From Cloeon dipterum (Eukaryota > Arthropoda > Insecta > Ephemeroptera > Baetidae), in contig NC_088788.1 of assembly GCF_949628265.1 (NCBI RefSeq), positions 30,862,335 to 30,926,334 of the forward strand: a DNA stretch of 64,000 bases, given 5' to 3'. Positions 1 through 41,376 of this stretch are shown piece after piece. Made by a program: the position numbers and the translations under genes. The notes under the pieces are model-generated. The model made no database searches and was not told where the DNA came from. It was given only the letters and a program-made list of their open reading frames with translations. Each line of letters begins with the position of its first letter. The stretch's first letter is position 1.

Positions 1-3000
1 GAATCGGTTGAGGGCTTCTTGCTCGATACCCTGGGCCTGAGTGCAGTCGTGCAGGTTCTCCAGCACTCTCTGCACCAAGGAGGCGGCAAAGGTCGGGTCG
101 CGCGAGCTCCTCACAAGCATCATGGTTTCATGAAGTGAGTGCAGCTGGCTCACCAGAGTGTTGCTCAGCCCAGAGAAGGAAGTCTGGATCCACTGTTCCA
201 GCTCAAGTCGGACCTTTTCAAACTGGGGGCCAAGAGGATCAACAGCTATTGGCTCTGTGCTTCTAGGTATGATTGCAGTGGCAACAGTTTCAGTTCCGAA
301 GCTCTGTGAAATTTTAAATATATTGGGGTTTCAATCGTAAATTGTGGGAATGCAACTTCAGATAGGAAAATAAGTTACGCACCGGTGGGGGCATCATGAG
401 AGCCTCTCGCTCTGGCAGCGGCTGGAAACCGGGTATGTTGCGAGCAAACTCTTCGTATACAGTCATTTGCTGAGGTGTGACCATTCCAACTTTGAGGCGG
501 ATTTGCTCTGGCATCCTTTCAGCTTGGTACTTGAGAGCAAGTGAGTCGCAATACCGCCTACCTTCGTTTTGGGCAAGTTTGCGCATTTCAAGTTCCTAAA
601 GTGAAATTTTTACAAGGGGGTTCGCAAAATTGCAGGCAAAAGCGGAATTCTTACGTTGGCTAGTCTTTTGTCGATTTCAATGATGGCCTTTTCAATGGCA
701 GTTTTCTGTATGAACGCACAGGCAAGTTCAATGTTCTCTTGGGCAACCATGGTAGCAGTGTGATCTACAAGTTCTTTGTGACTTGCAGTGGCACTCTGAA
801 AAGGACATTTAATATCAAATTTGTGTACAAAAATCAATTATACTTAAATGAACAAGCAATCATTGTTAATTTACTGATCAACAAATGTTTTTTTTGTAAA
901 TTAGGCGAGCCTAAAACACAGCATTTCAAACAAATGTATATTCATAATGGGCTTAGAGCCACTGTCAATGACATCACATTTAGTCCCTTCCCCTCTGAGA
1001 TACATTCGCTTAAATTAACCTAAATGGTTTAGTTTTTGGAAGTCACTTACCAAAAGCTGAGTTCCAAACGCTGACTTCAAGTTACTGCAGATTGCCACAA
1101 GTAAGCTGTCTCTGCAGGTGATCATGGCCATTCCTGCTGTCAAGTTGCGAACCATGTGATGGGCAGCTGCACGCATTCGATCTGGGTCAGGATCAAGAGC
1201 AAAGTCCTAAAAAACGAAACATCAGCAATCAAATCTTTCGGACATTTACTCGTTTCAAACCTTTTTGATGATCTGCTCGCAAGTCGTGAGGGAAATCTTT
1301 ATTGACCTATCCAAGACAGGTGCCATCCATTCCTGAACAGCGCGCTCGATCGCACCTTTGATGTATTGCTTGAGAGAGGGTTGAGCTTGGAATAGAGGCA
1401 GAGGGGGCACCACAATGTGTGCCGTCAGCGCGGCAAAGTTGTTTGCTTGAATTTCGTGGTAGGCAAACCTTGGCTCAGGTGGACCAGACGGTAGAGCGGG
1501 CGTTGGGGTGCCGGCTGTGGCGACAATTCCAGTGCTGGTGGCTGCTGAGCTTGTGGCTGCCGCAGAAACCATCTGCTGAGGCATTTCCTCTGTCGTTGCT
1601 ACGGTTGGGGATTTTTCAGTTTTTCAGTTAATATTGTTTTAGATAAAATTTACTTGTGGGTGGCTGCGGTGCTGGAGCAGGAGCACTGGTCGGAATTGTG
1701 ACTACACTGCCTGTGGAAATCTGCGGCTCAGGCTTGGCTGGATGCGACAGTTGAATCTCCAGGGTGCGCAGTTTGTCTTGGTCTTTGAGATAGACCGTTG
1801 GCTTCAGGTCCTGCAAGTGATCACGTGAAATGGACAAATCAGAGCGTACCTTTCATCTCTTACGTAAACGTCAATGTTCAGGTTCTTGCATAGAACTTCA
1901 ATTTCAAACTTAAGGTTGAGTTTTAGGTCTTGCTCTTGGTGCAGTTCTGCTAGCACATTCATGAGGGCCATGGTCCATGGATTTGGTGGCCTAAAAACCT
2001 ACACAAACACACATTAGTGGAGGAACTTTGATTTTGAAGTTCAAAAGAGTACCTTGCTTTTGGAGCAAGCTTCTAGGACTTTGGCCACAAATGGAACCAC
2101 ATACAGCAGTTCCTGCTGGCCCTTGAGATACGCTTCAGCAAGCAGAGCTTTTAAGTCCATGTCATTTTGAAGAATTGGCTTGTTCTTGGCCAGGGTCAGC
2201 ATTCCAAGCCAGTGTCCCAGATTTTTCAGCAGAGATCGGTCTGAGAAATTGGCGATGCCTTTTTTATCACTGTGAAGTAGGACTTTGATGTTCCTGAAGG
2301 TTTCTCTCACAACCATTTTGTTCAGGTCAGGTATTTTCAGGACATCAAGGAAATTTGAATAGAGAGCATGAAAGTTAAACTCGATGCTAGCTCGCTTCAT
2401 TACTAAGTACTGAGCTACCCATGGCCAGTATTCATCTGTTATTATGTCTTTCAAGTCATCACACTGAAACAAAACGTCATAAATAAATAATTTTAGTTAA
2501 GAGGCGTTAAAATTAATTTTGGTATAGTTAAAAAAATAAAATCATTGATCTGAAACTCCCAACATGGAGATGATGTACTATCTAAAAATTTGCAAAGAGC
2601 ATCAAAATTTTACCTTTGATTGCAGATTCAGCTGACTCAGGTTGTTGAAGATAAATGCGATTTTATCCTGCATCACTTCTGGTGGAGCAATGATTTTCTC
2701 CTCCTTTTCAGTCGCCACCAAGAGTGTGTCGATGTTAGTAGCCATAGCAATGGAAGGCTATATCAAATTATGATAAGTGTGTGAACATTTAAGTACAGTG
2801 TTATGATACTTACTCTTGAAGGAATGCCAGATCCAATTGTTGACTTCACAGCTGTGCTGCTTGTGGTTGAAACAGACGGGGGCAAGTTTGCTGCAACGTT
2901 GGGTGCAGGAGAATTGCTTGTTGTCACTGAAGGTTCTACACTTCTCATGCCGCTCTCAACATACTAGAGCCATGAAAAATCAGTCAAACATGTTTGAATA

Positions 3001-6000
3001 GAAAGGTCTTAACTTTTTGTAATGGATTAATTAATAAGAATAATTGTCATATTTTACTAGCAGCTAGATTGATTTACCTCGATCAAAGTTGGTGGGAAGC
3101 TCTTAAAGTTAGGCAGTTGAGAGACATATTCACAGTACTTTTGGTACTCTTTCAAGCGTCCCTTGAATCGGTCCAAGGCAGTGATGCCAAAGTTGTACAT
3201 TTTGCTTTGATATGATTGTTTCAAGGCGTCCAGCACATACCTCAAAGCGTATCCAAGCGCCAGATAGCTACTTAATGCGTGTTAGTGATATATTTAACAC
3301 ACATGATTTTAGCTGTAATACCTGACAAGCCCTCTTTCAATGATTCCACCAAATAGTTGAGCAGTAATGTATAGCTCTTTGTCTGGGTACTGAGGAAAGA
3401 ACTTGTATTCCTCAAACAAATTGCGTAGCATGCAAGTGAAGACATCCTGAAGATAATCATTGTTAGTTTAGTTTACAATCATTATCCAAATTTGATTTTG
3501 GTACCTTTTCTCTTTGATTGGGTGATGTTTGGAATTTCCTGAGCATTTCCAAAGTCTCATCAATTGAAAGGGTTGGATGAGGAGGATGGTTGTAAATTCG
3601 CTTAAAATAGCTATTAGCCTCTTCTTCCACTTCTTTTGACAGCATGTGGGTGTTTTCCGAAAATATCAAGGATTCTCCTAAAACAGAAAAAAAAACTAGT
3701 TTTGATCCACTCATTTAAACAAGGCATTTCATGAAAGAAAATTTCTGTGATATTCAATGAACTGGTAGAGCTGATAGGGCCAAATTAATATAATGGTCAT
3801 AATCTAAATCACATAGGAATACAATTTGAAAAACAGGTGTAAGTCAGAGACAAGAAACCTTCATGAATTCACAAAGCAATTGATCTCAACAGTGCAGAAA
3901 CGATGCTGCAGTATCAATATTGCTCAATTGTAAACAATGAATAAAATGAATTAAACTTGTCGAATAAAATTCATTTTAAGCTTTATGTTGTTCCATTACT
4001 TACCTGTTTCATTTGCAGATTTTTACTATCTAAAACCTGCATGATTCAAAGCCAGAAAGAGACCTGTATGACTTACCTTTGTCAGAAGAAGTTTCTAGTC
4101 TAGGAGGGCCCCCAATGGGATTGAGGGAGGTCTGAGACATGCCTTGAGAGGAGGCAGTTGATGTTATCTGCGAGCCAACAGGCCCTCCAGTATGCAGCTG
4201 AGCATTGAGCGGCAGCAAAGGATTGAATGGGCTGGTGGACGCCACTCCGGCGCCGATTATTCGCGAAGGAGATGCTGGTGTCGACACCTGGGACCCAAGA
4301 GAGTTGGAAAGCAACGGACCGAGATTTGTTGACACTAATGGTCCTGGCGACCCTGGCATGCTGAACGCGGACGCGGTGTGCGCTCCTAGAGCACTGCCAA
4401 CTCCACCGCCCAACGATAAGCTGCTCAAACTTGATCCAATGCTGGCCAAGCTGTCCACTTGTGGGGTTGAGAATAACTAGGGAGAGCGAGGTCAGATTTT
4501 TCAAGCAAGTTTAAAAGAGCAAGTGTACCTGTGCATTAATTCCAGCTGGATTAAACGCACTGTCAATACTGTGTCTCGGTCTTATGGCACCTGGCAAGGT
4601 TTGGCGTGGGTTGCCTAGAAGAATTTTGCAGTTGGCAACAGTCGTGCTAATCATCTCAGATAAGTCGTGGGATACGCTCCTGTAAAGACAAACGCTTTCA
4701 ATTATACTGCGTCAATCAAGTGTTTGGGGAAAAACCCACTTTTCAAAAGCCTGCAGGCACATGACCATTTGAGCGAGCTGATCTTGAGGAAGTTGAGCTG
4801 CCTTGGCGGTGTCATCTTTCACAATGCCGCCAAGCACCTGAGGAGTGCGTCTCTGTAACGACACATTAGCAAATTCACTTTTAATTGCTGATGCAATATC
4901 AAGATATGACGTGAAATGATTGCTGATTCCTCTCAAAAAATTAAAGCAAAAAGATTGACACAACTTACAAGGAAACCTGTTAGGATGTAATCATAGTTAG
5001 TGGTTGAATTAATCAATTAATTTTCAACACTGAAAGCTAACATAAAGTTTTTTTTAATTTTGAATGTGTTAGAGAGTTATGGAGCAATAATTTTAAGATA
5101 TTCTACAGGAATTTGATATGTTTTTAAGTTGGTAGTAAATAATAACGATTCAATAAAATTTTGAATCTACATTAAAAGGCAGTTTATAAACAGAACTAAA
5201 CAAAGAAATTTTAAAAGCCAATTTTGAGAATATCAGCTGATTTTTAACCCTGTAAATCGCAACTCCAACCAATAAGTTTTTACCAATGAACTCACTTCAA
5301 ATTACAATACTTTGTGTATCCAATGAGATTGTTACTTGTAAATCAAAGCATCCTTGAAGTTTCCTTGTTAGATGACAAGCTAGTGATTTTATACTTGAGA
5401 GCTGTGCAAACCGATCTTATCAAAGAATAAGATGAAGCTAAAAAACTAACCTGGAGGAACTTGACACAAGCTGAGATGAATGGCTCTCCTTGCTGAATCA
5501 TTTTGTCATTAAGCCATTTGTCCAACTTCAGGAAACCTCGTCTGGAGGCTAGACAAGCTAAGTCGATCACAAAGGGATAAGTTTGTTCTGCCAGCAGCAT
5601 GGAAAGGCCTTTCAAGTCTTGTGCAACGTCGAGAATTCTAGTAAGTCTTGTCTGATCGTTTTCGCCTCTGATGTAATACTCAGCCATGGCCGCCATTACC
5701 ACAGGCTGGAAGGCGTTGCTCTGTGGATCAAACAAGTTTAAAAATTAGGATTCAGCAGGTTTTAGGTTATCAAACTGATCTCTCACCTGAGCATGCCAAG
5801 CAGTGTGAAGGATGATTGCCGAGTTTGAGTGGTTGGCTAGGAATGTGGGTAGCAGAGCAGACAGCACATCTTTCCGCAGCTGCATCGAGCTTTTCTGCGC
5901 GTTCTGAGTGCTAGCTTGCAGCAGACCAAGCGCGAGAACGTCTGGGTACAGATTGAGAACCGGTTTCAAGATTTCAGTGACTGGGCTGCACAGTCCACGA

Positions 6001-8652
6001 TCACAGAGATACAGCAAAGTCTCCAACAGATCCAATGAGCGCCTAAATGAGCAATTTTTTCTAAGACCTTGTTATTTCCATGTTTTAAACTCAGTACCAA
6101 GTGTTCGCGTCCTTGCTATCAGAGTCTGGAGGCACCTTCAAGGTGTCGATCACCACTGGACGGAACGTGTAGTCGGTGAAGCTGAAGACATCAGGACTCT
6201 TCAAAATTTGTTGCACTAACGACAACTGGAGAAGACAGAATTAGAAGATCGGACGGACGAATAATACGTGTGTAATACTTGTCCTTCAGCATTCTCCCAG
6301 GCTCTGTAGATGTGCTCGATAGGGAAGAGATCTGGATGGAAACCCTGTGCCTGCAAACCTGACCTGAGGGCAGTCATCAACAAGGTGAGACCCTGCCTGT
6401 CGTTGACGCGGAATTCTTTAAAGTCGAGTTCTCTGACAACGTCGTCCCATCTCAGATTCGGTGCCATCTCTTTGATAGCCTGGACGAAAATTTCCACGTT
6501 CCATGTTAGTGGTATTGACTCTGGTTTCTCTTTGTCCGCGTAGAAATTAGAAGTCTTGTCAAGTCCTGTGTGGGTGCGCACCATGGCGCCGAGAACCCTG
6601 GCAATGGCTGCGGATGTGATCTCTCTGCCCAGGCTGGACAGCTGCCGGCGGCACTCCGCCGCAGAGGAACAACAGCCATACCCGAGCTCGATTATCAAGT
6701 CTGCTAATGAATTGTCCATCTGAAATTTGAAAAATTGCAGACCACGCAGTTCAGCCGCTGGCATGCTTCTAACCATTTTCGAGGGAGGCTCAATTGGCAT
6801 ATCAACAGATATGTCCAATGTGGATTTGTACAGGAATGGCGCAAGAATCTCAGGTACAGTTTCAGGACTGTAATTCTTGCACACTTGTTCCAGAAACAAG
6901 TCAAATGTTTCGGGGTTGACTCCTGAAAGAAATTGATTGGTAAAACCAGTTGTTTTGAGGGGTAGATTAATCACCAAAAGTATCACTCGACAACGCTGTG
7001 ACGTTGGCAAGGATAAAGTGGAGTGCTTCAGTACCAAAGTCCTTGGTAGTTTCGTCGCTGGACGCTCCAGGTTCTGCCAAGTTAAGGGTTACTTTAATAT
7101 TATGAATTTTACTGTTGAGATAGATTCTATTATATTACAAAATGATCGTCTGCTTTCATGGTTGGGTTTGATATTATATTTGGCTTGCGCGGTGCGGCTT
7201 CTGATTATTAACCTTTACGAGTGCGGAAAAAATGCGACACATTTGTGTAATTTGGCTATCCAGAGAATCAGCATAACAAGCGTGTCATGTATCCGCATGC
7301 GCAGGGATCTTCATTTGAGTAATCCAAATTAAAGTCCTACGTAAGCAGTTCAATAACGGTCATTATGATGAAATAAATTCTTGGTATTGGACTATTGGGT
7401 TAACATTTTTTGTTCAATTCTTGTGTGATAGGTGTTGGGTGTATGATTTTTTAGATTGGCTCTTATAAAGCATGAGCTCCATCATGTTTGTGTCTTTAGT
7501 ATTTCCTTTTACACATTTGCTGAGTGTTCATAGGAGCATGGGCGCACAAATTGTGCACAGGGAACGCACGCTGAGCTGGAAATGGACTTTCCTGTACCTA
7601 TTTCGTGTTTATATGGGTGGATGAATAGGAATATATGAAGTTTTATTGAAAATGATCCATTGACTTATGGATTTAAAAGAATTAAAATGCAACATACCTG
7701 CTTCAACGACACTTCGGACAAACTCTGGAAATTTCTGCTTGAGAAATCCAAGAGCTTGGCTTTTGGTGTCTGAGTTTGAGGAGTGCAGAAGGCTGAGGCC
7801 AAGAACGACTTCTTGGATGGGGGAAAAGCGCAACAATCGACTCAGCAAAGACAGGAGCTGCTGGGACGACTTGGGGCTCTAGAAGTGAGGTTAGTTAGAC
7901 GCATGGTTAAATAGAAGGTTATTGAGCAGTACTTTTAGAAGTTGGACCGCTTGCTCGAATGCGTAACAAAAGTTAGCAACAAGTCGAGACTTGGACAAAA
8001 GGGCGGCGCACTCCTGCTGGAGCAGCAGTATTTGCTGACTTCCTTTGTCCGATGTGGCTCCAACTTCGATGTATGAAAAGAGACTTCGCAACAGATGTCG
8101 GTCTGCCTCTTCACCGTGCAAGGCTATCAACTACAAGTCAAAAGAAATGAGCGCGTTAAATTATTTCAGCTTTTGTAAACCTAACGTGTCTAAGGGTATA
8201 AGCTATGTTTGAATTAAAAACAAAAGAAAATGCTAACGTCAAGATTGCGCACACATGGTAACAGTCAGTGTGACAGAAGTTAAAAAAAATCGATTTAAAT
8301 GAGTGGAATAGCCTGATGCAAAAAATATTAAAACAAAGTATTGGATGGAAGTCTGTGAGTTGGGATATTTCGTAATTGATAATCCTTAGCTTGGATGGAA
8401 ATGAAAAATGGAAAATGCAGCAAAATGATGCGCAACAAAAAAGAGGGGGAATGGATGCTAAGCGCTGATATGCACAACAGCGACCATGCACTTGAGATAG
8501 GTCAAGCTGACCAAAACCACACTTTTTAGCACTTTGCACACGATACGTACACAGGATAGTTCTTGAACACTTGTTTTGTAATTTTTCTTCGTTAAATTCG
8601 CAACCAAATAATTGATTTGTGACAAGGCAAAAGACAACGAATCCAGGTTCAT
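1..8652 (-). CDS. CNOT1: CCR4-NOT complex scaffold subunit 1 (partial, C-terminus outside window)
   Basis: CNOT1 is the scaffold of the CCR4-NOT deadenylase, which shortens mRNA poly(A) tails and represses translation. The start at 8652 ([17 protein letters not shown]) matches the conserved animal N-terminus; exon 1 is 8551-8652 and exon 2 runs from 8130 to 7933. The order of recognisable segments follows the vertebrate protein: N-terminal HEAT repeats (8130-5451), a Ser/Gly/Pro-rich linker (about 4030-4460), the TTP-binding and MIF4G/CAF1-binding region ([10 protein letters not shown] at about 3590; [17 protein letters not shown] at about 2200), then the DUF3819/CAF40-binding region ([18 protein letters not shown] at about 1330; [15 protein letters not shown] at about 500). 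The left edge falls near human residue 1650 of about 2376, so the NOT1 C-terminal domain is not in the window. Larger introns are 4853-5451, 7074-7697 and 8131-8550, with no further gene seen in them. The identity is certain; some exon edges are approximate. Confidence 0.97.
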
Positions 8653-23938: not shown

Positions 23939-26900
23939 ATGGAGGAAGATGAGATTAATTTTCATTTAGAAAAGTTGGGAGCTAACAATTTTTTGTATTT
24001 TGTTCACAAATATCATCAGAGCTCGAAACGTTACTGCCCATATACATTAACGTAAGATTTAAACTGACTTTCAAGTTATTAGCATAAATACGAAGTCGAG
24101 AGAACAATCATGAAATGATTTTTCGACACTGAATTCTAGTTCACCTGTTTGAAGTAGCTCAATTTTCAGAAGGACTGACTTTTCGAGATTAGAAAAGAAT
24201 GTCGAGTATTTCACAGTGAGCCACTATGGGGTAACGAGGTTTGCTCCCTACAGTCAGCCAGAAACTACGTCACACGAGAAATGGAACCAAGAAACGCAGG
24301 TTTACAAAAAGCTAAAAAAGGTAAAAAAATATGTCGATTGTCGCATTTGGATAACAATAAATTGATAAATAATTCTAACAGCTGAAGCTCTTCGCCACTT
24401 TCATCGTTTGGCGAGCGTTTCGCAACTGGCGCAAAAGTATCATGACCACCAAACTCGACATTTTGTACAAAACACTGCCATCTAAGGTTTTGTGGTACGA
24501 TGCTGCCCTAGGTCCTGCTCTTCAAACTTGCAAAGAAATCTGCTGCAAACTGAAAATGATGGGACTCGGGAAAGAACTCAAAGCTGAGCCACTGAGTCTG
24601 GTTCAGCTATTAGATGACCAGGTACAAAATGAAAATTCAAATTGTGCACATTTTTCACACTCATAAATTAAATACATAGATCCAAAACTTGAAAGAGATA
24701 AGGAGTCTCTTTTCAGTATTGAGAGAAACAATTCAAGATCAGTTGCTGGCGTCTTGCAAATATGCAATGAGCTTTGAAGGTTTGCCAACAACGGCCTCGA
24801 GTACTCGTCCAAGCTCTGTTATATCTATGGGTATTGCAAAATTTGATTTTTTAAAAATAATTAAATAATGGATTTTTTCTTTTTCAGGAAGTGGCAGGAG
24901 TCAACTTAAGCCACCAATAGAAGCAAAACATTCATTGTCTTACGCAGATCAAGAAAAAAGGATTAGTGTGAGCGCAAAGCTTGGAAGGTTATTTTTTATA
25001 AATTTAATATGACCCTCGAAAATTTTTTTACAATTATGTGATTGTAGATTTGTCCGGCTAGTGGACTGTCTTTTGCAACACACATTACATTCCGTTCTCC
25101 TGAACTCGTTCAGAGAATTTGTTTGCACTGTTGAAAATAGGTTTTGCACAAACACCCAAGGAGATGCCGAAAAATTGGTAAGAACTAAGAATTATGAGAC
25201 AAAACTGCGGAGTTTGCAGACAATTAAATTTTGTCTTTTATCTTTTAGGTCTGTCTGTGCAAGATCGAAGTTTCAATAGAAGAAGGAGAGCTCGTCTTAA
25301 CTCCTTCTCAGCTAGAAATGACTAATTCTCTGCGAGGACTTTTTCAAGCATGGGAAGATGCTGTGAACGCTTTTGATTTGTTTTCAAACGATTTAACTCT
25401 GAGCCCATACTTGAGGTAAGTACCGATTTAGAGAATTCTCTTGGAATTTCAAGCTTGAAACATTAGAAATATTGGATAATAATATCAAACACAAAAATGC
25501 TTGGAGAGTTATGAGGTGATTTATCAAACATACTATTTATTTCTAGGGAAAATGCATACAAGACTCATCTGCTGGATATTGTAACTAGCGATGAGAACAT
25601 TTCAAATTATAAAACGAGAGTGCGGAATATTCTAGAGAAAAATTTCCAAATGGCTCGTGGCTACATATTACAATATTCAAGAATCAACGATGCTCACATG
25701 ACAAATTTAAAACTAAGTTGTGATGACATCAGCCTCCAGACAGGTGAATTTTAGCATTATTTATACCGTTTATGGTTATGGGATTATTCATAAGTTTTTT
25801 TTCACGTTAGCAGATCCGCGGTACTTTGACAATTTGCTACAAGATTTCAAAGATCAGGAACAGGAGTTGGAGAAAATTGAGATCGTGCGGGTCATCGGAA
25901 TTTTTGAGCTCCAAATGGAAAAGATGAAATCGACTGCAACTCCTTGTCTTTTGTCGTTGAAAAACTTTACAAACTCACTTCTCCCAAAGTTAGAAGATTT
26001 TCAAATATAATTTTCTTACTTAAGTGGATTGTCTAATGTTTTTGTTTGATAGAATTAGTAGGCAAAAAGTAAACAAACTGTCAGCTGAGGTGCAGGACGC
26101 ACAAGCGTTTTTAGAGCTGCTTCCAAAAAATACGGCCAATTTTGTAGAGTTTTTAAACTATCTCGACAATACCATCGCGAAGGTACTGAAATAAGTTTAG
26201 ATGCAAATATAAATATCAAAGTAATAATTTCAGCTCCCCAGCATGCACGGTGAAATAGAATACTTGGAGAGCTTATTCACCATAATGAAGAAATACAACG
26301 TCACCTGCATGAAAGAGGACATTACTTCATTCACTGTACTGATATCAGATCAAAGAAAATTACTTTGGTTTCAATTTAAATATCCAACAGGTATTTCAAA
26401 AAAGCCTGGCGTCACTGCAGGGAAGTGTTACAAAGAGAGAAAAGCAACGGCCTGAAATCGTCAGACAGTTTGAAGAAGCGATGAAAAGCGACATAGAGCA
26501 AATCGCAAGCGAGCTCAAATCGGTTCTGAACGCGGCAAACGTACGTTAAGAGTTTAGACCCCTGCAAATTTGTTATCTATGCAACCGGCGTGACCGGCGA
26601 GCAGAACGGATTGCATAGCCACAGCGTCTGCAGGCATTTGATATTTCAGGAGCTGATTTTGCTTGACATTGAGTCGGACGTGGAGGAAGTTCAACTCATT
26701 ATTCACCAACTTCATTCAAAATTGAGTGAAATCGATAGGAAAAATGAATACTACAAAACACAGAAGATAAATTTCAATGTATTCGAATATATATTATGAA
26801 TCTAACGGGCTCATATCTCCTCAAAATCGCATCTCTCATAGGTTGATGTTGGAGAGTGCACAGACTTAGAAACAGCGAAGCGAGCAGTGGAGTTGCGGAA

Positions 26901-29900
26901 ACTGCTATGGGACAGTCTGGAAGCGTGGAATGCTAAGGTGGAAGACTGGGAAATGCAACCGTTCGACACCATTAATCCAAACGAGCTTAAAGAGTTTATT
27001 GACACAAGCGTGAACACGATAGACAAAATAAGCGATGGATTGCCGGAAAACAGCGTAATTCAGAAGTACTCGGAATTAGTCGAGAATATGAAGACGAAGG
27101 TGCATAATGAATTTAATAACGGATAAAATTTTGATGGACTAATTGATTTTGTAGCTTCCTGTAATAGAGTGCATGAGAAATGAAAACTTGAAAGAACGGC
27201 ACTGGAAAGAAATTGGATCTTTGGTCAAACAGGATTTGAGTTCAGATGAAACTCTTACTCTGCGGGTTATTGAAGATATGAATTTATTTGCAAATTTAGG
27301 CAGCATAAAGGAAATTTCCATTCGTGCTAGTATGGAAGCAGGGCTGAAAGAAAAATTAGGCCAGGTAATAGTGTTGTTAATTTAAATGAAGGAATAATTT
27401 AAAAAATGTATTTCATTGAAGATGGTTGCCAAACTGGAAAGTTTGGAGTTTGAAATGAAAGTTTACGGAGACAGCTTTATCATAGCAGACAACGCCGAGT
27501 TTGACCAAACTGTCAATGACACATGCATCGCGATTGGAGTGATTGCTAACTCCGACTACGCAGCTCCGATTATAGAAAGTGTAACCAGCATTGGAGCTAA
27601 GTTTGACTTGTTTACACGAACTTGGGTAAATCCCGTATTGATCTAGAATATCAGTAGCTTAATAATTGATTTAGGAGAAAATTAAAGCATTTCAAAAACT
27701 CTGGGTAACCATGGATTTAATTTTTAAGCAAGATGAAGTGAAAATTAAATTTGCCATGGAATTCAAAATGTTCGAAAAAGCGTCGCATTTATGGTTCTAC
27801 ATTGCAAGGCATATTTACCAGGTAAATTTTAGTTAATAGAATGAAAACAATTAAGTAAATTTTCGTATTAGACTGCATCCGCTGTAGAAGCGCTAATCGA
27901 ACATGGTATTTTGAGCCGTATTGAACTTGGATTCGCACTGATTAAGGAAGTCGGCGTATGCTTGACTACTCTCATCGAGCAAAAGAGAAACAAATATTCG
28001 CGCTTTCATTTTTTATCCGACGAAGAAATGCTAACATTTATAGCACAGGTGCGATACTGTAATTTTTATGGATGACGTAATATTTTACAATGTGCAGTTC
28101 AACAAGCCGGAATTAATGCAAGACTTACTGCCAAAAATGTTCTCGTCTTTGCGATACTTTAAGTATAAAACAGACAAAGAGGGTCAGATTCACGTGTTGG
28201 GCCTGTGCAGTTCCTCTCACGAATCACTGTTTCTGGAAAAGGTTTGAAAATTTAAAAGCCCGGAATTTATTCCATTGATTTAGGGTTAGCCAATTCTAGT
28301 AACACCAAACATTGACTGTTGGATGTCAAAATTAGAATTTATCACGTCTAAGACGATCAAGATGTCTATTTCTTCAGCAATGACAACGCCTGAACCAACA
28401 GATTTAGCTGAATTTATGTCCAAATATTCTGAACAGGTATGCTCACTTTGGAAAATGTGTAGTTAAAATTAATTTGATATCGTCTACAGGTTCTAGTGGC
28501 TGTCAAATACATCAAATTTAGCGAAAATGTAGAAAAAGGAAACATACAAACTCTCTATTTGGAGTATAAAAAGGTTTGAATGACACAATGAGTTAAATAT
28601 TCATTCTATAATAAAGAAAATATATTAGGGCCTGGAATCGATGGAAGATCTAATGAATTCCAGTCTTGACCCCGCATTTCTACACAAGATTAATGTCGTG
28701 ATCACAACGCAAATACATTTGATTAATTTGCTGGAACGATTGAAAAATGAAGAAAGTTTTAGCACATCAAGCTTTTCATGGCAGAAATGTTTGAGATTTT
28801 ACTGGAATCAAGAAAAGAAGCACTGCCGAATAAAAATAGGTCTGACCTGTACGGACTATGGATTCGAATTCATATCGTCAGAGGATATTTTCATTTGCAG
28901 TACAGGCACTGAAAAAACTTTGATAAATCTACTCTTTTCAATGCAAATCGGTCTTGGTAAATTAATTCTTGAATTTAATCCTTTGGCTGACAATTTTTCA
29001 CCACAGGAAATTACATAAACGGAGAGAGTGCCGTAAATGGGAAACGATTTGTGTTGAGAAACTTGGCAAATTTGATTGCTGTCAATTTCCTGCATTTTGC
29101 ATGCTCGAATATAATAACAGACAGAGTAAGTGAAGCAATGAACCCATAAATTGAAAGTTAATTTTTGTAATCTGCATTTCAAGACGCTTACCAGAATATT
29201 ATACGGTGCTGTGCAGAGTGGCAGCTGGTGTTGTCTCTCTAACACTGAAAACTTGACTGCATCCGCTTTATCTGTTCTCGCTCAGAATATTGCCACTGTG
29301 CTTCAGACAGTGAAAGCAAAATTATCTCTGTGAGTCACAGGACAATTCAATTAAATATTGACAATGTTATTACTGCAACCGGAACTTTTATAGATTTCAG
29401 CTTGAAGGAAGAGAAATAAAATGCAAGAGAGGCTTTGGAATAACTATGATCTCTTCAACAGGAACAGTTTCGAAAATTCCGAAAAATTTAATAAAGGTGT
29501 TTAGACCAATGAAGATCGACTCTCCGAATGAAGGTAGACGATTGCAAAGTTAGAACCAATTTAATAATTTTTAACACGATTTCTCAGCTTTCCTAGTCGA
29601 GAGTTTCATCAAAGTGAAAAGCTGCGATAGCGGCTTGAGCCGTGAAATACTTTCCAAATGGGAAGCTTATAAAAATACATTCAAAAGCCAAGCACCACAT
29701 ATCTTCAATGTGGGAAATTTGATTCGATCTATAAATTTAAAAGCAAGTGCGACAGCAAGCGATTTTCAAGAAGTTTTGGAAGACAAGCTAACAGCCCTAA
29801 CAGCAACAAACAGTGAACAAATTAAATTCGAGGGTGCCTTATGCAAAGCAATTAAAAGTGCGGCTTCTCGCATGGAGCTCATTCTCACACCTCGCTTGCT

Positions 29901-32900
29901 ACAGAAAGTTGTGAACATGCATCAGTTGATGAAACACCGCCAGCCAGTAGTTATCTACGGGAACGTTGCGAGCGGAAAAACTACCGTTTGGAAGGTTGGT
30001 GCAACTTTGTGCTTGCAATTATTCCACTCTGGCATGACAATTAATATTATATTTTTAGTTGTTCATAGAGAGCAAAAGAGTGCTGAATTCACAAGGAAAT
30101 GGGTTTAGCTATGATTACAAAGTAATTTGCCCACAACGATTGGCAGCCGCTGATTTTATGGGCTTCTATGATCAGAAATCGAAGAGATGGAACAGTGGTC
30201 TGCTTGAATCATTGATCGATAATGCAAAATCAACAAGCGTAGGTTCTCGTAAACTTTAAAGCAAAAAGAACTAACGCAGTCCTACCTCCAAATAGAATCA
30301 CGTAATGCTGGTACTAGATGGAAAATTGGAAAAGGATTGGATTCAGTATTTAGGGTCACTTTTTGAGAATACAGATCAGCACTTTCTCTTGGAAAATGGG
30401 AGAAAAGTATTTTTGCACATCAACGTTAATCTAGTTTTTGAGACCTCGAAGTTGGATATTGTAGCCCCAAGTTTCTTAAGCAGGTATATTTGCGTGAACA
30501 ATTATTGTTAGTTGTTAAATTAAATATGTATTTCAAGGTGCAATCTTCTAATGGTTGATGAAAGCCCAACTACGACGGTGATGTTAAAAGCGCAATCCAA
30601 ATTAAATCCTCTCGCTCTGAAATTTGCACCGACAATTCTGGGTGAACTTCAAAAGTTTAATAACGAATTAGCAAAATCGGATGCTAACGTGAGTTTTTTA
30701 GGTGCCTTAATTCTGATTAATTACTTTAAATATCAATGTAGGATGCAACAGTGCAAATCCAATTGATTTTTGCTTTTATTCTGGAAAATTTGAGACGCAG
30801 AGAAATAGCCACTCTCACAAGATCGGTAGTTTTGAAAGATATTTTCAACGCCATTAGGTCCACCATTCACATAACAAGATCAAGTTTACTGGTGGAAATT
30901 TTTGAGAAGTGGAAGAAAGGGAACGAATTTGAGTATGATCTGACATCATTGGTATATCTGCGTTTTAATAAAAAATCAATAAAAAGGAATTTTGAGCCAG
31001 ATGAATCAGAATTTCCAAGAGTTAAAGGGGCAAGTGAAGAAGGGTTCGGAGCTGATTTTCAACGTACGATTTCACTAATTCATCAGCTGAAAAACGAAGT
31101 TAACCCAATATTAATAATGGCTCCGACAGGTGCTTTAAGTTTTTACCTAATCTGCACCTAATATGAGTAATTACAAAATTAAACTAATTTTATTTTAAAG
31201 GCAGCGGTAAAACTTCCGCTCTAAGATATCTTCAAACGTTAGATGAAGTGGATGAAACAAGAAAGATGATTAATTATGCTGCTACCACCTCAATTGAAGC
31301 ATACGACAGTTTTGAATTTCGCGATTTTATTTTAAAACGATCTGCAAGGAGGAGTATGAAAAGTATAGGCGCGCCAAACGGGCGCAAGATTAGTTTCATG
31401 CTCGACGATTACCACTGTGCAAGCACTGAGCAAAGCGACTTTCTGCGCCTAATGCTAGATTACAAAGGATTATACGATGCAGCTAATCAATGGGTGCATA
31501 TTGAAGATGTGAATGTGATTTTGACCATGAACACAGATTCCGCCTTCAAAATGAGCAGTCGACTTGCTCGTCACTTCCTGCCTGTGCATTTAGAAGGGCC
31601 GAAAAAGGAAACATTGGTCGCGATATTTAAGGTGAAGGAGGTTTGAATTTAGTTAATTTAACAACATTTAATATTCGCAGAGGTCATCGGAGAATTTTCA
31701 AACATGTGGACTATCTGAAGTGTACAAGTCACTGATTGAAGCAGTTTTGTCAATTTTCTTTTCCATCCCCATTACGAAAGGAGCTAATTCATTGAGTTTC
31801 TTGGATCTGTATACACTGCTATCATCAAAGAGCATTTTAAGCTTGGCCACACAGGAAACAGACCAAGCAAACCTTATTAGGTAAAGGTTTGCACGGTATA
31901 ATTAATTTAAATAACAATTTTACGAATTTAAGGGAGGTGTTTAATGAAACAACGAGATTGTTTGGAGCCAAATTGCACGTAAAAGAAAACACCGAATCAC
32001 TGAAGGCTGAAATAATAAGAGAATTTGCCTTGCGGTTTGGAGCTGTGTGCGCCGAGGTGGAGAAATCATGCAAAATTGCCGAAAGCACTTACGACGTGTG
32101 CAACCACAGTCAGGATTTATCGACTAAAGATTGTCTGCAGGTTGGACTCTTTCTTCACTTTGTAACCAAGCGAAATTAAGGTAATTATTAAACAGGCGCA
32201 CTGCTCGGAAAGGCGGAAAAATATCCCAGAAAACTGTTTTCTCTTTGACAAGTTTGCGGAAGTAACAGCGGACGTTGCAAAGGCTCTTAAAACGGAAAGC
32301 AGAAGCGTGCTGCTCTTCGGGGAAAGTGGTGTTGGCAAGAAAATGATCGCAAAATGCTCAGCCCTCCTCCTTGATTTCGAGTGTGTATTTTTTCTAATCA
32401 CCGGTAAAAATAGTTTTCTTTTAGCTATCAAAACGATTGTTGATTTAAAATTTTAAATATCTTTATCATCACTCATCGAGGATTTTCATTGAATTTCAAT
32501 AATTTTAAAATTAAACTCTTTCATCTAGATGTGTACCAGTATCAATAACAGGCAACACAAGTGACGTGGAAACTCAATTAGAAAAAGCGTGTCTTAAGGC
32601 TCTTGCCGTAAAAAAGATGGTTCTAATTTTATCCTGCGATGATATTTCCTTCATCCAACGAAATAGGAACATATTGTGTTTGATAAAATATGGTAATCGT
32701 AGAGGTTATATTGAATTTAACGCATTAAAAATGAGTGTGTAGGAAAATCAACATTTTTCAGTTCAGAAAATTTTTTGCAAGAGGCTAAGCGTGCAATGCC
32801 GGATGCTTGTGATACAATCAAGAATTATGAAAACCTCACCCACATGCAATTAGTTGCACGCATTACAGATGTCTTAAAAGAAAATCTAAAAATCATTCTG

Positions 32901-35900
32901 TGCGTAACAGCATTACCAGATGAGTAAGTATCGAATCAAACCTTTTAGGAAGGTGAAGCATGAAATGATTTTAGCCTTGACGAATTTGAGGAAGCAAGAT
33001 ATTGCTTTGTGCAATACATAAGAAAATGGACAGTAGAAGATAATCAAGAAATAGCTAAATCACTTCTAAAAGTCGGCGTATACGAATCAAATTTTGCAAA
33101 TGCAAGCGGAATCGAAGTGTGTCTCTCTCAAATTCATATGGTAATAATTTATACTAACGTGCTCTAGCGCTCCTACTAAAAACAATTTAAATTTAATTCA
33201 GCTTGCAAAAGATGCATACCTTCGTGTGCTAGACAAAAAGATTTTTCTCACCACCTGCATGTACTTTGATTTCTTGCATTTGTTCAATGCAACCTACGAT
33301 GCAAATATACGAGAGCTGCGCGCGACACGCGACAAATGTGTGCATAGCATTAAGGTACGAGATAATTATTATGCCAAGTTACAGTAAAACTTAAACGCGA
33401 TTTGATTGATACAGAAACTGGAGGCAACATTCCAAGCTGCAGAAGAGTTGAAACAAGAACTTGGCATCATGGTGCCAAAACTGAAGGAGAAACGATTTTT
33501 TTGCGAGAATGTGACTAAAAGATTGCTGAGTGAGCGGTCGCAAGTTGAAAAATTCAAACTTGCTGCCAAATTAGAAGAAACGGATTTAAAAGTAAGTGGT
33601 ATTAGTTTATTATTTAGAAACTTGAAGTTGTTAATAAATGAATGACTAAATAATATATAAATGGAACAATTTTGCTTAAAAGAATAAGGAGCTTAATTGG
33701 TTTAAAAACAATTTTTGGACGGTAGGAAAAAACCGAGGAGGCGAGGATTCTCAGTACAGAAATTCAGAGAGACTTGGACGAGTGCACCCCAGCGATAGAA
33801 GCGTCGTGCAAAGCACTTGAGTTAATTGAAAGGAACGAGCTGAAAGACGTTAAAACGACTAATAAGCCTTCATCGTTGCTTCGGCTCTTGATGGAACCTG
33901 TTTGTCTACTGCTTGGTTGCAAGTAAGTGATTATGTCGAATTTTTTGGGTTATGTTACGTGGAACAATTCGTGTATTTTTTGTAGATCTGACTGGGGGTC
34001 TGCGAAAGCACTTGCGGCAGATCCAAATTTCATTAAAATGGCAATTGAGCTGGACAAGGAAAACATCCCTGAAGCAACAGCAAAGAAGCTAAAAGAGTAC
34101 GTCGACAATCCCAATTTTCTGCCAGAAGTTATGGAATCGCACTCGCGCTTCTGTCGGACCTTGTGCATGTGGGTACGAGCCATTCACAACTACGTCAAGG
34201 TTTATAGAAATCTGCAGTCAAAGAAGAGGAGGTTAGTTTGTCAAAATGATCTTAATTTGACTTTTGATTAAACTAACAACAAGTAACAAAAGTTTTAATC
34301 AAAGTCTATTTTTTCGAAGAGAAGAATTAAAAAAATCAGTCTAGATTTTTATGACTGCGTATTTTAGACTGGAATCGATCGAGAGCGAAATTCGAATTGT
34401 CATGTCCAAGTTAAAAGGTCACCAACAAAAATTGGCAGACACCGACGCCAAAGTGGCAGCTCTAGAGGTTACTCAAGACCAAGGAATGGCAGAGGCTGAC
34501 GCTCTATCTAACGCAGTTGAGGGAGCGACAGTCAAATTGAAGAGAGCCTCTCAATTAGGGTCTGCTTTCACGGAATTCGATGTTTGGAAAATCAGGCTAA
34601 CCGTAATTGTTCAAGCAGTAGAAATTAATTTAAATTTTAATAGAAAATTGTAGGATTATAATAGTAAAATTGATAATTTGTATGGAGACGTGTTGCTCTG
34701 CGCGGCATTAGTTACTTATGCGGGGCCACTCAACGAAAAATCAAGGAACGAAATCATGAAATCGTGGGTTGAATGCTGCGCTCAGAACAATTTGAAAACA
34801 TCATCTGATTTCTGGTAAAAATTTCAAACAAGATTTTGATACGTTTTTTTTAACTGAATCTGCATGTCTGGCAGTTTTGAGGGCATTATGAAGACGGCAT
34901 CCAAAATCCACGGATGGCACACTAACAAACTTTTGAGAGACAAAAATTTGTTAACGAGCGCTGTGATTGTGGACAAATCAAGAAAGATTCCGTTCATTGT
35001 TGATCCCCAAGAAAAGGTACAAAAGCAAAATAATGAAATATTTTGTACCTCGTACAATTTTTCAGGCGTGTCTATGGCTTCGAAATCTTTATGGGGCTCA
35101 AGCTAGCTTCATTTCAGCTTATGATCCAAATTTACTTCAGGAAATTGAAAAAGCTTTGGACCAAAATTTCCCTGTTTTAGTACAGGATGTCAATGAACAC
35201 GTGTCGCCAGAATTAATAGAGCTAATTGAAAGAAAACGTTCTGAACGGAAAATAAGGATTTTCATTTTGACGCGAAATCCTACGCCAAATTTAATGGCGG
35301 AGGTTTACAAGCATTTTAATGTGATTGATTTTTCGGTAACATCTGCGGGACTTGAAAATCTTCTGCTTGAGTGAGTTTAGAGAAGTTCATTTAAAAAACT
35401 AAAAAAAATGAATGCCTTAATTTAGTGAGATTATCCACATGAAGTATCCAGATTTGGAGAACCAGTTCAATACAACTGGTGCGCGTTTGAGAGCAGGAAA
35501 AAGGGACTTAGACGATATAGTTTGTGAAATGCAAGATAAACTGTGTCAATTCAAGGGCGATCTATTGGAGGAAGAGGCTTTGATCAATTCACTGTGCAAG
35601 AGCAAGGTTACTTTGTCTTTTAAGCTGAATTCAATGCAAAATAACACATTTTATTTTCTCAGAGCTCCATGGACGCACTTTTAACGGCGCGTGAGCGGCA
35701 CTTAAAATTGTGGAATGGCTTCATGGATCGTAAAGATATATTCCAGACGGTCGCCACGAGTGTGTCTGACATATTCATTGCTTTGACGCACATGCATAGC
35801 TGCAAAAATGTCTATCAGTTTTCTTTTCAAACTTTTAAAATGGTGATCAATTGGAAATTAAAATCAACCTTATTTTACAGACAAATAATACTATTTTGTA

Positions 35901-37301
35901 CGTTGCAGAAATTCTTAGAGCTGCTTAAAAGGAGATTTAGCCAAGCAGAGACAGAAGAGAACCTGAAGAAATCGGTAGAGAGTTTCAAGAAATGCGTGAT
36001 CACAGAACTTATTAATTATTTCGCTCACTGTTTCTGCCGTCAAGATATGGAATTATTTTGTCACATAATTTCCGGCAGTTTCGAGAGGCGCGAAATTCGT
36101 CAGAATCAGGGTGATGACGGGAAAGAAGAATTCCAAATCAACTTAGAAAATGTATTTAAGATCACGCTGATTTATTTCAAGAGTATTTAACAACAATTGT
36201 TTCAGGCACAAACTAATAAGACGCAAATCCAATTGCGGCTTGGCTTTGATATTCAAAAAGTTACTTTCAGCGTAGGAAATCTGAAAGAAAAGTATTGATC
36301 AAAACATATTAACCTTTTTAATCTGTAATTAATAAATATTATATTTTAATTTTTACAGGATAATGAGCTCAAGAAAGCTAGCACCAATAGCCTTTTTACT
36401 GGGACAAGATGTTTCGAATGAACTAAAAATTCTGGCAGAAGAACTGCGGCCCAAGGAAGCAGAGCAAGGCCTTGTCAACATAGCCCTTGGTAAAGGTCAA
36501 CTGGAAAAACCGACTTTCTGGCTAAAGAAAGCAGTGGAAAAGGGACTTTGGATACATTTCCAGGCCAGTTGAAATTAGCTCTCCAATATTTAATTAGTTG
36601 ACTTATTTTAATCTGCAGGACTGTCAATTGGAGTTTAAATGGCTCCAAGAGTTGGAGAGATATTTTTCGATCTTCAAATTAGACCCCAATTTGGTGCACG
36701 AAAACTTCAGAATGTTTTACAGTGTGAACTCAGATTTCGGAAAAATTCCACCAGGCTTGGGTCAGTTATCAATTTTGTTTTCAACAGAAGATTTTAACAT
36801 TGAATCAAACTGCTTAGTGGCAGCAGGTAAGTTGACTGGAAACAGGTTTATAATAATTAATTAACTCCTTTATTTGAACATTAACAAAGGTGCGCAGAAC
36901 CTGCATAGTTGTAATGAGCTTTTAAAACGCGAACAAATTATTGTTGGTGGTGGAAATTTTCCAATATTGAGAACTCACTTGTATTTGTATTATATAGTGC
37001 AAAATGTTGCAAGAAGGAAATTGAGAGATCCGGATGATTGCATTAGATATTACACAGGTAACATTTTTAAATATTATTATATTTTTGAGCCAATTATTTC
37101 AGTATTTTTGTTCACAACTTCAAATCCAAAAGATAGTGTGATCTTCAGAGGACATTTTAATGATTTTGAGCACTTCCGAGCTTTGCTTCAGCTTGCATTT
37201 GAAAATGACTGTATGTAAGGATGATTTTTCTTTTCTAATACACTGAACACAGTAATCGACATTGTTTTATAGTTAAAAACGAAGTTGATGAGCATACCTG
37301 A
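23939..37301 (+). CDS. Divergent dynein heavy chain with inactive AAA1 (pseudo-motor candidate)
   Basis: Dozens of short exons join in one open frame to roughly 3,300 residues, shorter than axonemal heavy chains (about 4,000-4,600). The N-terminus (EYFTVSHYGVTRF, then FIVWRAFRNWRKS) resembles axonemal inner-arm heavy chains. The linker is clear: NLKERHWKEIGSLV (27180), LIEQKRNKYSRFHFLSDEEM (27990). The ring follows in order. AAA1 (28800-29520) is degenerate. AAA2 has P-loop GNVASGKTT (29959) and LVLDG. AAA3 has APTGSGKTS, split by an intron at 31130-31200, FMLDDYHCA and SSRLARHF. AAA4 has GESGVGKK (32319). Then come coiled coil 1, the microtubule-binding domain, coiled coil 2, AAA5 (LLCAALVTYAGP, IPFIVDPQEKA) and AAA6 (IALGKGQ, WIHFQDCQLEFKWLQELE). 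After AAA6 only about 100 residues remain, so most of the C-terminal domain is absent. The stop at 37301 assumes a last intron; without it the stop is at 37218. No close family name fits; DNHD1 is one other possibility. Confidence 0.88.
28800..29520 (+). other. Dynein AAA1 module with all catalytic motifs lost
   Basis: The segment aligns with AAA1 through its flanks: FSWQKCLRFYW before it, LYGAVQSGSWCC (family: GLAQSGAWGC) and IPKNLIKVFRPM (family: LPENLKALFRP) inside it. The P-loop, in the family GPAGTGKTE, reads GESAVNGKR (29021-29047). Walker B, in the family CFDEFNR, reads CLSNTEN (29231-29251), so both acids are gone. Sensor I, ITMNPG in the family, reads ITMISS (29440-29457). Splice sites around it are standard and the frame is open. 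The motif replacements are read directly; loss of ATPase activity follows from dynein enzymology. Confidence 0.88.
33406..34620 (+). other. Dynein stalk and microtubule-binding domain
   Basis: Coiled coil 1 (33415-33900: KKLEATFQAAEELKQ, KEKTEEARILSTEIQRDLDE) leads into the tip domain. The tip (about 33880-34235) has LLRLLMEPVCLLLGC, SDWGSAKALAADPNFI, ELDKENIP and FCRTLCMWVRAIHNYVKV, each matching the conserved dynein tip pattern. Coiled coil 2 follows (34369-34600: SEIRIVMSKLKGHQQKLADT). This suggests the protein can still touch microtubules. The exon holding the tip begins at 33986. Confidence 0.85.
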
Positions 37302-38391: not shown

Positions 38392-41376
38392 ATGGCAGAA
38401 CAGGTGCATGACAACTCCGCCTTTGTTGCGGCTTCGTCCAACCTGCCGCCCGGTTGGGATTGCAAATACGACGAAAGGGCAGGGCGATTGTAAGCATTAA
38501 TAATTAAATTCACAATTTCAGATAGCACGACTGTGTACAATGCTTAATGTGTTTTAAAATGAAATTTTTAAATCCTGTCCGTGAAGCGCGTGACTCAAGA
38601 TATATATTGATTTTCTTTGTTTATCACCCCGTGAACTGGGTCAATGATTGTAGACGCTCACCCCTTTATGTATTCTTCTCCCCAGCTACTACTTGAACTA
38701 CTTCACCAAGACAACAACGTGGGAGGATCCTCGGCTGAGATATCGCCCTGTTGCACAGCCCCAGCAATTCTTTTCATCAAGCAGCGTCCATAGTTCTGTC
38801 GCAGGAGAGTCCATTCCACTTCAGGTTAAATAAAGAAAACTAAAGCAAACTGCAGGAAAAAATCGATCATGTAATATCTGAATCCGTAGGATTTGACAAA
38901 TGTTCGTCCAAGTCCAATTCCGAGCCGAGCCTACTCATCGTCAGGCCCTTCGCCTCTTATGTGCAACCATGGCTTCATCCACAGTTCATCTCCGACAAGA
39001 GCGTCTGGAGCGCCTGCCAGTGTCTGCAGTTCACAGGACACCTCCCTGAATATTGAAACGGAGCAAGCCGTGGCCAAAATTGGGGCTATGTTTCCAACTG
39101 TTGAAGAAAACCACGTCCGTGCCCTACTTAAAAAGTAAGACTACTTGTCTATTCACTTAGCACATATTGTTAAAGGGACTAATAAGTTGCATCACACTAA
39201 CTGAACATGTCAAATAACTTAATATAATACACAGTGCTGTAAAATACCAAAATGTGCTAACTATACTGATTAAAATACTTTCGCTTTTGCTTCACTAACC
39301 CTCGCGGGTCTTTGTAAATAACCAGAATTTGGGAAATTCGGCAGTGGCTTTGAATAATATTTGCAGGTATCACAACCGCGAAGCAGTGGTCATCAGCGCC
39401 TTGCAGGTGGAGAAGCATCCCCTGACTACCCCCGGCCCCTATTCGACCCCGTCCCTGGCCCGCCACCACATTTCCTCCTCTAACCAGTTTGGCATTTACA
39501 ATGCCTACCAGCAAATGCTCAGCATGTCGCCCCCGCTGCGCCACTGCAGCCCTCCGCGAAGCCCAACCACCAGGCCTGGCTCAGGAGCCAGTAGCTCTGG
39601 CAGTTACGGTTCTCCAAGACCAGGGGAGATTATTCGAGGTTTGCCTCGACCGCACTCCTCGCCTAAGATGAAACTGAGGTCTCGGCTTGTTTAAATTACA
39701 TTGGCCATCTTTTTGTAGACCAGTCTTTTTATCATTTTTCCAACATTTCGTTTTACTGTAAAAACTATTGGTTTATATATAGTCAATATTATTTGTTTCC
39801 AGGAAAGTTGGGTTTTTTAGTTCCCTTTGTCTAGTGCCTGACAATTGTAAATCCTAAACTTATTGTATCAGAGATATTTTGTGTACATAATTCAACTCGA
39901 TTAGGCTTGCTAAAAGTTACTGTACAACAGGTATAGATATTGCATGAGCAGCTGTTTAGTGCCTGGTGGTAGTATAGTCAAGTTAACCCATTATAGAATT
40001 GAATTTATTAAGTTGTGAGAGTGATTGGTTGCCAAAACGTTTAACCAAAGCTCAAATCCTCAACAGGTACATGAAAGGGCTGTTTCCTGCCGCAGAGGAA
40101 ACTCTGCTCCTTGATGTGCTCAGCAACGCTGACAACAATGTCCAAAAGGCGTCAGAGAAACTAACCAGCATGGGCTTTGAAAAGAGGGACAGCCCACCAC
40201 CAAGAGTGCTGCAGAAGAGGAAGGAAGAGGAGCAGAAGGCCTTGCAAGAGAAGCAGCGCATGTCGGCCACTCCAACGCCTCCACCACGTCTCAAGAGTTC
40301 AGAAGAGAAGCAGAAAAGTGAGCTAGAAACTGTTATTTTATAGAATAATATAATATGAGGAATTTTGCAAAATTTCAACGTTCAAGATGAATTATTAATT
40401 TAATAATTGGAGGCATTTGTTTTGGTACGTCCACTGAGCAACATAGTTACTAAAATATTGGTCTTTTTCGGGTTTCCTGGTTGATGAAACTAGTGTTTCT
40501 AGTTTTACGATAGAGACAATTTATTTGGATTGATTTATCGACCTAATTTTCAGTGAAAAAGCGTCTGCAAGATTTGTATCCAGATATTCCTGAGAGAGTC
40601 GTGACGATTGCGCTTGACAGCTCGGATTTTGATGAGGAGCGTGCAAATCACATTCTTCAAGTGATGGTTGACGAGGAGGGCTCTAAGCCTTCAAGTGTTG
40701 ATACACCAAGCTCCAGCAAAGATGGGTAATCCTCAGAAAATCACTGGCAATGAAAACAAATACAGTGTAATTCTCAGGGAACTACACCACGAAATGAAAA
40801 TCTCCACTCAGAAAACTGACACACCATTGCTGGTGGAGTCTTCCCCTGCTCGATCCCGCAAGAACTCCCCCGCACGCAAGATAGAAAAGGAAAAAGCGTC
40901 CATCCACAAGCGTGCCAAAGGGAAGAGGGAAGTGCCAAAGTGAGTGTTTATTTGTTTAAAACTGCATTTAACTAATAATCTCTGCAGGGTATCAAGGGGC
41001 ACCAGTACAGCAGAGGACAAGGAGTACAAGTCATCATATCTGCAAAAAACCAGTGGACCAAACACTGAGAACCTTTCTGGTGCGAACAGCGATCTGCTTC
41101 TGTAAGTTTTACAACATTTCACTTGGTTGTCAACCACTGAACAAATTGTGTTATTGCAGAGTTGACTATGTCACGTGGCAAGGCCCCAACGCAGAAAATC
41201 GAACCGGACCAAGAGGTTTAGCCAAAGGTCCTGACAAATCTCTGCGTGAGGGAATGGCTTACACAGCAAGAGGGCCAAACAAGGGGTTGTGCAATGGGCC
41301 AGTCAAAGGCCTAGCTAAAGGGAGTATTTACTCTAGTTTGGCATCAGGCAACCTGGTTGACTCCAGGGGAAATTAA
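38392..41376 (+). CDS. WW domain and CUE/UBA-like repeat protein, function unknown
   Basis: I do not recognise an orthologue. The start at 38392 (MAEQVHDNSAFV) is the first ATG before the domain. One WW domain spans exons 1-2: LPPGWDCKYDERAGRFYYLN, then FTKTTTWEDPR, with both tryptophans and the proline present, so it should bind proline-rich ligands. Three CUE-like three-helix units follow: VAKIGAMFPTVEENHVRALL (39070), YMKGLFPAAEETLLLDVLSN (40070, followed by ASEKLTSMGF) and LQDLYPDIPERVVTIALDSS (40570). These have the hydrophobic pattern of ubiquitin-binding CUE domains. Linkers are Ser/Pro-rich. A basic segment (SRKNSPARKIEKEKASIHKR) precedes a C-terminal tail with repeated GP units (TGPRGLAKGPDKSL, RGPNKGLCNGPVKGLAKGS). 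A 52-bp intron at about 40728-40779 keeps the frame. A role as an adaptor joining ubiquitin and PPxY-type partners is inferred from the domains. Confidence 0.8.

Follow-up and report, generated by a model that had tools for sequence, protein, structure and literature searches.

The Dynein Gene and Its Neighbors

The window studied here is the whole stretch of 64,000 nucleotides of DNA analyzed, which looks like part of an animal genome. It contains a dynein heavy chain gene on the plus strand, together with several other genes identified by Pfam matches. On the minus strand lie a CNOT1-like gene (1–8000; CNOT1_CAF1_bind 204.9 bits, from a rough decode) and, between 16011 and 23606, a hamartin (TSC1) gene (Hamartin 65.3 bits) and a GPR107-like seven-helix protein (GOST_TM 93.2 bits), joined to one another by the rough decoding. 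A WW-domain gene (38392–39653, plus strand; 42.1 bits) is located directly 3′ of the dynein gene. Rough models on both strands between 48000 and 62000 correspond to PSMC2 (PRS7_OB 129.2 bits), a PRPF40-like protein (FF domain 41.1 bits), NAA60 (77 bits) and SYF2 (184.1 bits), with one further rough model giving a weak match to a desaturase (16.5 bits, below cut-off). Scans of the 64-kb window against Rfam and for tandem repeats gave no matches.

The dynein gene was modeled by reading the DNA in three frames and applying a small splice-aware decoder, for which exons visible in the window served as training data, followed by correction by hand. This gave a computed frame of 51 exons (24171–37218) encoding 3256 residues with no internal stop, and on this splice model the open frame across all exons described in the initial annotation is borne out. 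Forty-one of the 51 exons are identical to those of the blind decode; the other 10, including the exon that carries sensor I, were adjusted or added by hand. All 50 introns have AG acceptors, 49 being GT-AG and one GC-AG, and their lengths range from 45 to 148 bp with a median of 57 bp. The model, which was chosen partly for its openness, contains no frame-breaking change or lost splice site. The sole GC donor, at 36564 (intron 36564–36618), was picked because it restores a DNAH6-like join, HFQ-DCQL. Within the exon 35663–36151 there is a stop-free stretch of 66 bases with GT/AG ends (35843–35908), noted by eye as a candidate for a further intron and kept as coding.

A probable first coding exon is found at 23939–24051 (plus strand). 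It begins with Met, reads MEEDEINFHLEK...PYTLT, has a GT donor and an AG acceptor, and is in frame with the exon 24170–24320; an in-frame stop lies upstream at 23921. The Met start at 23939 probably brings the protein to 3294 residues, with about 3290 codons open. The last exon (37103–37218) ends with the stop codon at 37216–37218, and there is an AATAAA sequence at 37865.

The domain order is that of a dynein heavy chain, all features being on the plus strand. In the exon table the tail occupies 12 exons (24171–26778; residues 1–591 of the 3256-residue model). It is followed by the linker (26866–28376; Pfam DHC_N2, residues 600–1000, 234.4 bits, cut-off 31.9) and by an eroded AAA1 (28857–29718; AAA_6, residues 1125–1336, 113.6 bits, cut-off 25.2). 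Beyond these come the stalk and microtubule-binding domain (33349–34767; MT, residues 2284–2608, 96 bits, covering positions 7–340 of 344), AAA5 (34915–35668; AAA_9, residues 2638–2835, 120.6 bits) and the large part of AAA6 (36381–36759; Dynein_heavy, residues 3033–3140, 60.1 bits), inside which the intron with the GC donor is located. The Pfam families above cut-off are DHC_N2, AAA_6, AAA_7, AAA_8, MT, AAA_9 and Dynein_heavy. By the sequence match to MT, the gene retains the stalk and microtubule-binding domain expected of a motor dynein.

The P-loops of AAA2, AAA3 and AAA4 were said in the initial annotation to be kept, and all three were found in the DNA. That of AAA2 is GNVASGKTT (29959–29985; read from the DNA and by alignment), that of AAA3 is APTGSGKTS (31120–31217, interrupted by an intron at 31130–31200), and that of AAA4 is GESGVGKK (32319–32342), the remainder of AAA4 being strongly eroded. 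AAA3 also keeps the Asp-Asp of its Walker B motif (FMLDDYH).

The Gene Is Most Like DNAH6

The full-length protein matched DNAH6, a motor protein of cilia and sperm tails, best in the PDB (three species, 847–855 bits), followed by a Chlamydomonas chain (657 bits) and DNAH2 (539 bits). The tail alone, which matched eight chains in all, also gave DNAH6 of three species (142–146 bits) and then chains at 83, 62 and 61 bits. An intact protist dynein gene (L001, below) falls in the same class by its tail, for which the same six chains came first. The window gene has the class-specific tail of the DNAH6 class (DHC9). DNAH6 was likewise first for the linker (163–167 bits, next 130) and for the C-terminal third (320–331 bits, next 304), and led narrowly for AAA1–AAA2 (213–221 bits, DNAH2 at 197). 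The AAA3–AAA4 segment matched nine chains, the best at 59 bits, with DNAH6 absent.

The identification as a dynein heavy chain thus stands, with DNAH6 as the best PDB match at full length and for every segment but AAA3–AAA4; placement in a subfamily by trees is less secure. The four trees, built on short sets, contain few sequences and a very long window branch, with supports of 48–82. The split joining the gene to DNAH6 had a support of 59 for the linker and 82 for tail plus linker. Supports were 48–57 in the stalk–AAA5 tree, and in the AAA1–AAA2 tree the window gene was not sister to DNAH6.

In the classification of Kollmar, DNAH6 is DHC9A, corresponding to inner-arm dynein g, and DNAH14 is its sister class DHC9B (PMC6367277). 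No chain labeled DNAH14 was present among the best 60 of the 96 PDB matches. Among the chains compared, the gene is closest to that of DNAH6, an inner-arm heavy chain. In Drosophila, the DNAH6 gene is Dhc16F, knock-down of which is reported to leave 10 of 10 males infertile, and no orthologue of DNAH14 is given for this insect (PMC6367277).

AAA1 Lacks Its Catalytic Residues

For comparison of the active site we used dynein loci found by searching genome contigs with the AAA1 of DNAH6. This gave 12 loci (L001–L012), evidently eukaryotic dynein DNA within contigs filed as bacterial genomes, i.e., bin contamination; four are filed under one Verrucomicrobiaceae bin. Eight of the 12 served as references. 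L006 was left out because its AAA1 is the same as that of L005, and L010, L011 and L012 because they contain in-frame stops or introns. The dynein AAA1 of L010 (2497–3036) has four in-frame stops, mostly at positions where its relatives differ, and may use a ciliate-type code. The same query in viral contigs gave four matches, none confirmed. Orthologues of the window gene itself were sought in the genome contigs (11 pattern matches, none confirmed) and in the viral contigs (three matches, none confirmed).

AAA1 is encoded by exons 28629–28956, 29007–29125, 29184–29329, 29394–29533 and the start of 29588–29994, separated by GT-AG introns of 50, 58, 64 and 54 bp. Three altered motifs were read from the DNA and aligned at the P-loop, Walker B and sensor I positions of the eight intact references and of human DNAH6. 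The former P-loop is now GESAVNGKR (29021–29047, plus strand), against GPAGTGKTET in all 12 of the dynein loci. The former Walker B motif, CFDEFNR in DNAH6, is CLSNTEN (29232–29252, plus strand) and has lost its Asp-Glu pair, and the former sensor I, ITMNPG in DNAH6, is ITMISS (29440–29457, plus strand) and has lost its Asn. The N-loop (TPLTDR) and the GR.ELP stretch are also altered. No part of the complete catalytic set (P-loop GK[ST], Walker B DE and sensor Asn) is found entire. The central claim of the initial annotation, a dead AAA1, is therefore confirmed: as read from the sequence, AAA1 demonstrably lacks the P-loop Thr, the Walker B Asp and Glu and the sensor Asn on which the known mode of ATP binding and hydrolysis depends.

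Could the loss be an artefact of splice choice or assembly, or could an alternative exon restore the site? The gene model is computed, with 10 of its 51 exons adjusted by hand, which leaves some scope for this. However, the exons that carry the motifs align to DNAH6 without a break. The introns flanking the AAA1 exons are only 50–64 bp long, so that there is no space for an alternative intact exon. In addition, scanning all six frames of the window for intact AAA1 motifs, which detects those unsplit by introns, gave only the P-loop of the proteasome gene at about 49560 and an unrelated FDEF at about 59936. An alternative exon with an intact AAA1 was looked for in both places and not found; we reject it, and consider an artefact of any of these kinds hardly credible.

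Erosion Extends across the Motor

The retention of invariant residues was measured against four references, each left out in turn as a control; one reference was exchanged for the linker, and three were used for the tail. In AAA1 the window protein keeps 29–31% of invariant residues (controls 90–93%). The corresponding values are 31–36% in AAA2 (84–92%), 43–50% in AAA3 (67–80%), 18–22% in AAA4 (75–84%) and 37–40% in AAA5 (71–88%). The stalk and microtubule-binding domain keep 37–50% (54–85%), the linker 42–53% (53–88%) and the tail 14–27% (25–37%).

In AAA1 29 of 87 invariant columns are kept. Divided on our own assumption as to which columns make up the nucleotide motifs, the losses number 26 of 37 inside these motifs, compared with 32 among the 50 other columns (p = 0.65). 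They are about equal in the two sets, and therefore the active site has not been singled out; a loss aimed at the active site only is rejected. The initial annotation had described an otherwise intact gene with three active-site losses independent of one another. This description does not hold, since the losses are as frequent outside the motifs, AAA2 is about as eroded as AAA1 or more so, as is AAA4, and about 400 C-terminal residues are gone. Judged from the residues retained, the pattern is one of constraint released over the whole motor rather than of a targeted removal of catalysis.

The C-terminal extension past the last aligned position is 127 residues long in the window protein, compared with 523 in DNAH6. 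Neither the AAA6 lid nor Dynein_C was among the 20 Pfam families matched at E up to 0.05 in a scan of this protein alone, and inspection by eye of open stretches of at least 18 codons downstream to 38450 revealed no recognizable C-terminal coding sequence. The absence of this end may prevent closure of the ring. Still recognizable are the tail, the linker, the P-loops of AAA2–4, the AAA3 Walker B motif, the stalk and the microtubule-binding domain.

These features bear on whether the protein might still act as a motor, with its power coming from AAA3 or from an AAA1 that works non-canonically through its remaining Gly-Lys. AAA3 has both GSGKT and the Asp-Asp Walker B, and the Gly-Lys is indeed left in AAA1. 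Against this, AAA1 is without its Walker B acids, sensor Asn, N-loop and GR.ELP stretch, and the C-terminal end is absent. Moreover, of the sites in dynein only AAA1 is said to be indispensable for motility, and it is described as complete in all isoforms (PMC4879348). We regard continued motor activity as very improbable.

Comparison with DNAH6 and with an Intact Protist Gene

The identity of the window protein to human DNAH6 is nearly flat along its length: 23–24% in the tail, 29% in the linker, 31% in the large part of AAA1, 16% in its small part and 24% in AAA2. For the protist gene L001 the same regions give 28–30%, 50%, 78%, 80% and 61%. Comparing the two profiles, AAA1 has therefore lost its place as the best conserved domain and now stands level with the tail. 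Modeled branch lengths are in agreement: the branch leading to the window gene was longer than that of human DNAH6 by 19-fold for AAA1–AAA2 (5.38 and 0.28), 7.8-fold for the linker and pre-AAA1 region (2.71 and 0.35), 3.5-fold for tail plus linker (2.02 and 0.58) and 4.4-fold for stalk–AAA5 (1.61 and 0.37).

We also examined sites that are identical in DNAH6 and L001. The window protein keeps 60 of 176 in the tail, 73 of 202 in the linker, 19 of 55 in the pre-AAA1 region, 51 of 175 in AAA1, 35 of 113 in AAA2 and 131 of 356 in stalk–AAA5. Thus 29–37% are kept everywhere, and the difference from AAA1 is significant for none of the regions (p = 0.10–0.79). A singling out of AAA1 at matched conserved sites is unsupported, although the AAA1–AAA2 branch is the most extended. 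With about one third of matched sites kept throughout, general relaxation fits the data as well as does a kept function of the tail. On these alignments, the ATPase part is the region with the greatest loss relative to its normal constraint, and no region stands out as fully protected.

Such evenness is what might be seen in a relic in early decay, i.e., a gene of the DNAH6 class, or a duplicate of one, that is under relaxed selection and in which the first frame-breaking change is recent or pending. This is the main rival to the reading of the gene as a non-motor protein. It draws on the erosion of all ring domains tested, strong in AAA4, on the missing C-terminal end, on the even spread of losses over conserved sites and on the long window branch in every region tested. 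The one GC donor and the ten hand-adjusted exons are also in its favor. There is a possible parallel in human DNHD1, described as a "ghost gene" that is perhaps turning into a pseudogene (PMC8754002), but DNHD1 variants have been linked to malformed sperm flagella (PMC9916431).

Survival of the Open Frame

A relic must also account for the open frame. Under a model of neutral damage to a frame of 9771 bases, with 10% indels assumed, the probability that an unselected frame has suffered no disabling change is 0.077 at 0.2% neutral divergence, 0.0016 at 0.5% (where 6.4 disabling changes are expected) and 2.6 × 10⁻⁶ at 1%. The changes in AAA1 need far more divergence than an unselected frame survives, and hence the frame was still being maintained during most of the erosion.

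From the real DNA, blind decoding recovered 94% of the model bases. After simulated neutral decay (six runs at each level) recovery was 87–93% at 0.5% divergence, 78–85% at 1%, 71–78% at 2%, 45–62% at 5% and 25–38% at 10%, the codon model of this simulation having been trained on the window gene itself, which biases it toward the real sequence. Retention of the frame by more than chance, as implied by the initial annotation, is supported, survival being far past the neutral expectation. It is possible that selection on the frame ended recently. In view of the frame, we think the relic rather unlikely.

A Possible Non-motor Axonemal Protein

On balance we lean toward a DNAH6-class inner-arm heavy chain that long ago ceased to be a motor and is still protein-coding. 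In such a protein the tail would still dock at an axonemal site, the stalk may still hold the neighboring microtubule, and AAA3 could perhaps set the strength of the microtubule grip. ATP binding at AAA1 is described as driving microtubule release and bending of the linker (PMC4879348), from which the window protein should be without a power stroke; lacking the AAA1 cycle, it would have no ATP-driven release either. Its role might be that of a structural or drag element, or of a partner in the assembly of other inner-arm components. The tether, dominant-partner or assembly roles proposed in the initial annotation are possible but hypothetical. More specifically, and more tentatively, selection may have continued while an axonemal chain of the DNAH6 class became a microtubule linker or drag element that does not cycle, a pseudo-dynein; we hold this to be possible rather than probable.

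If the frame is kept as that of a working gene, its roughly 3290 open codons would encode a natural motor-dead dynein, with which one could separate those inner-arm jobs that need force from those that need only a docked protein with a grip on the microtubule. A pseudo-dynein, if real, would be to dyneins what motor-dead heads are to kinesins, and would mean that an axonemal dynein slot can be filled without ATP hydrolysis. If the gene is a relic, it would be a dynein gene caught early in its loss, with a bearing on the "ghost gene" idea for DNHD1 (PMC8754002). Among the papers listed by our literature searches, none was seen to describe a heavy chain of the DNAH6 class that lacks AAA1.

Comparison with Known Systems

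The closest known protein is DNAH6, with which the window protein shares its tail, linker, stalk and domain order, and which is the best PDB match at full length and for the tail, linker, AAA1–AAA2 and C-terminal segments. It differs in having no AAA1 catalytic set, an eroded ring and a C-terminal end about 400 residues short. DNHD1, an orphan or "ghost" chain compared here by description only, likewise lies outside the normal set of motors (PMC8754002), but human DNHD1 is given as 4753 residues (PMC9916431) compared with 3294 for the window model.

In another motor superfamily, the partner heads of the kinesin-14 Kar3 are described as having the motor fold without catalysis and as aiding a motor (PMC4338441), whereas the window dynein has no known partner. 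A precedent among the inner-arm dyneins is DNAH12, a chain missing part of its motor that is reported to be needed for the recruitment of DNALI1 and DNAH1 to sperm flagella (PMC11949491). The two differ in what has been lost, DNAH12 being described as without the microtubule-binding domain (PMC11949491), while the window gene keeps that domain and loses AAA1. As DNAH12 shows, an inner-arm heavy chain need not be complete to be of consequence.
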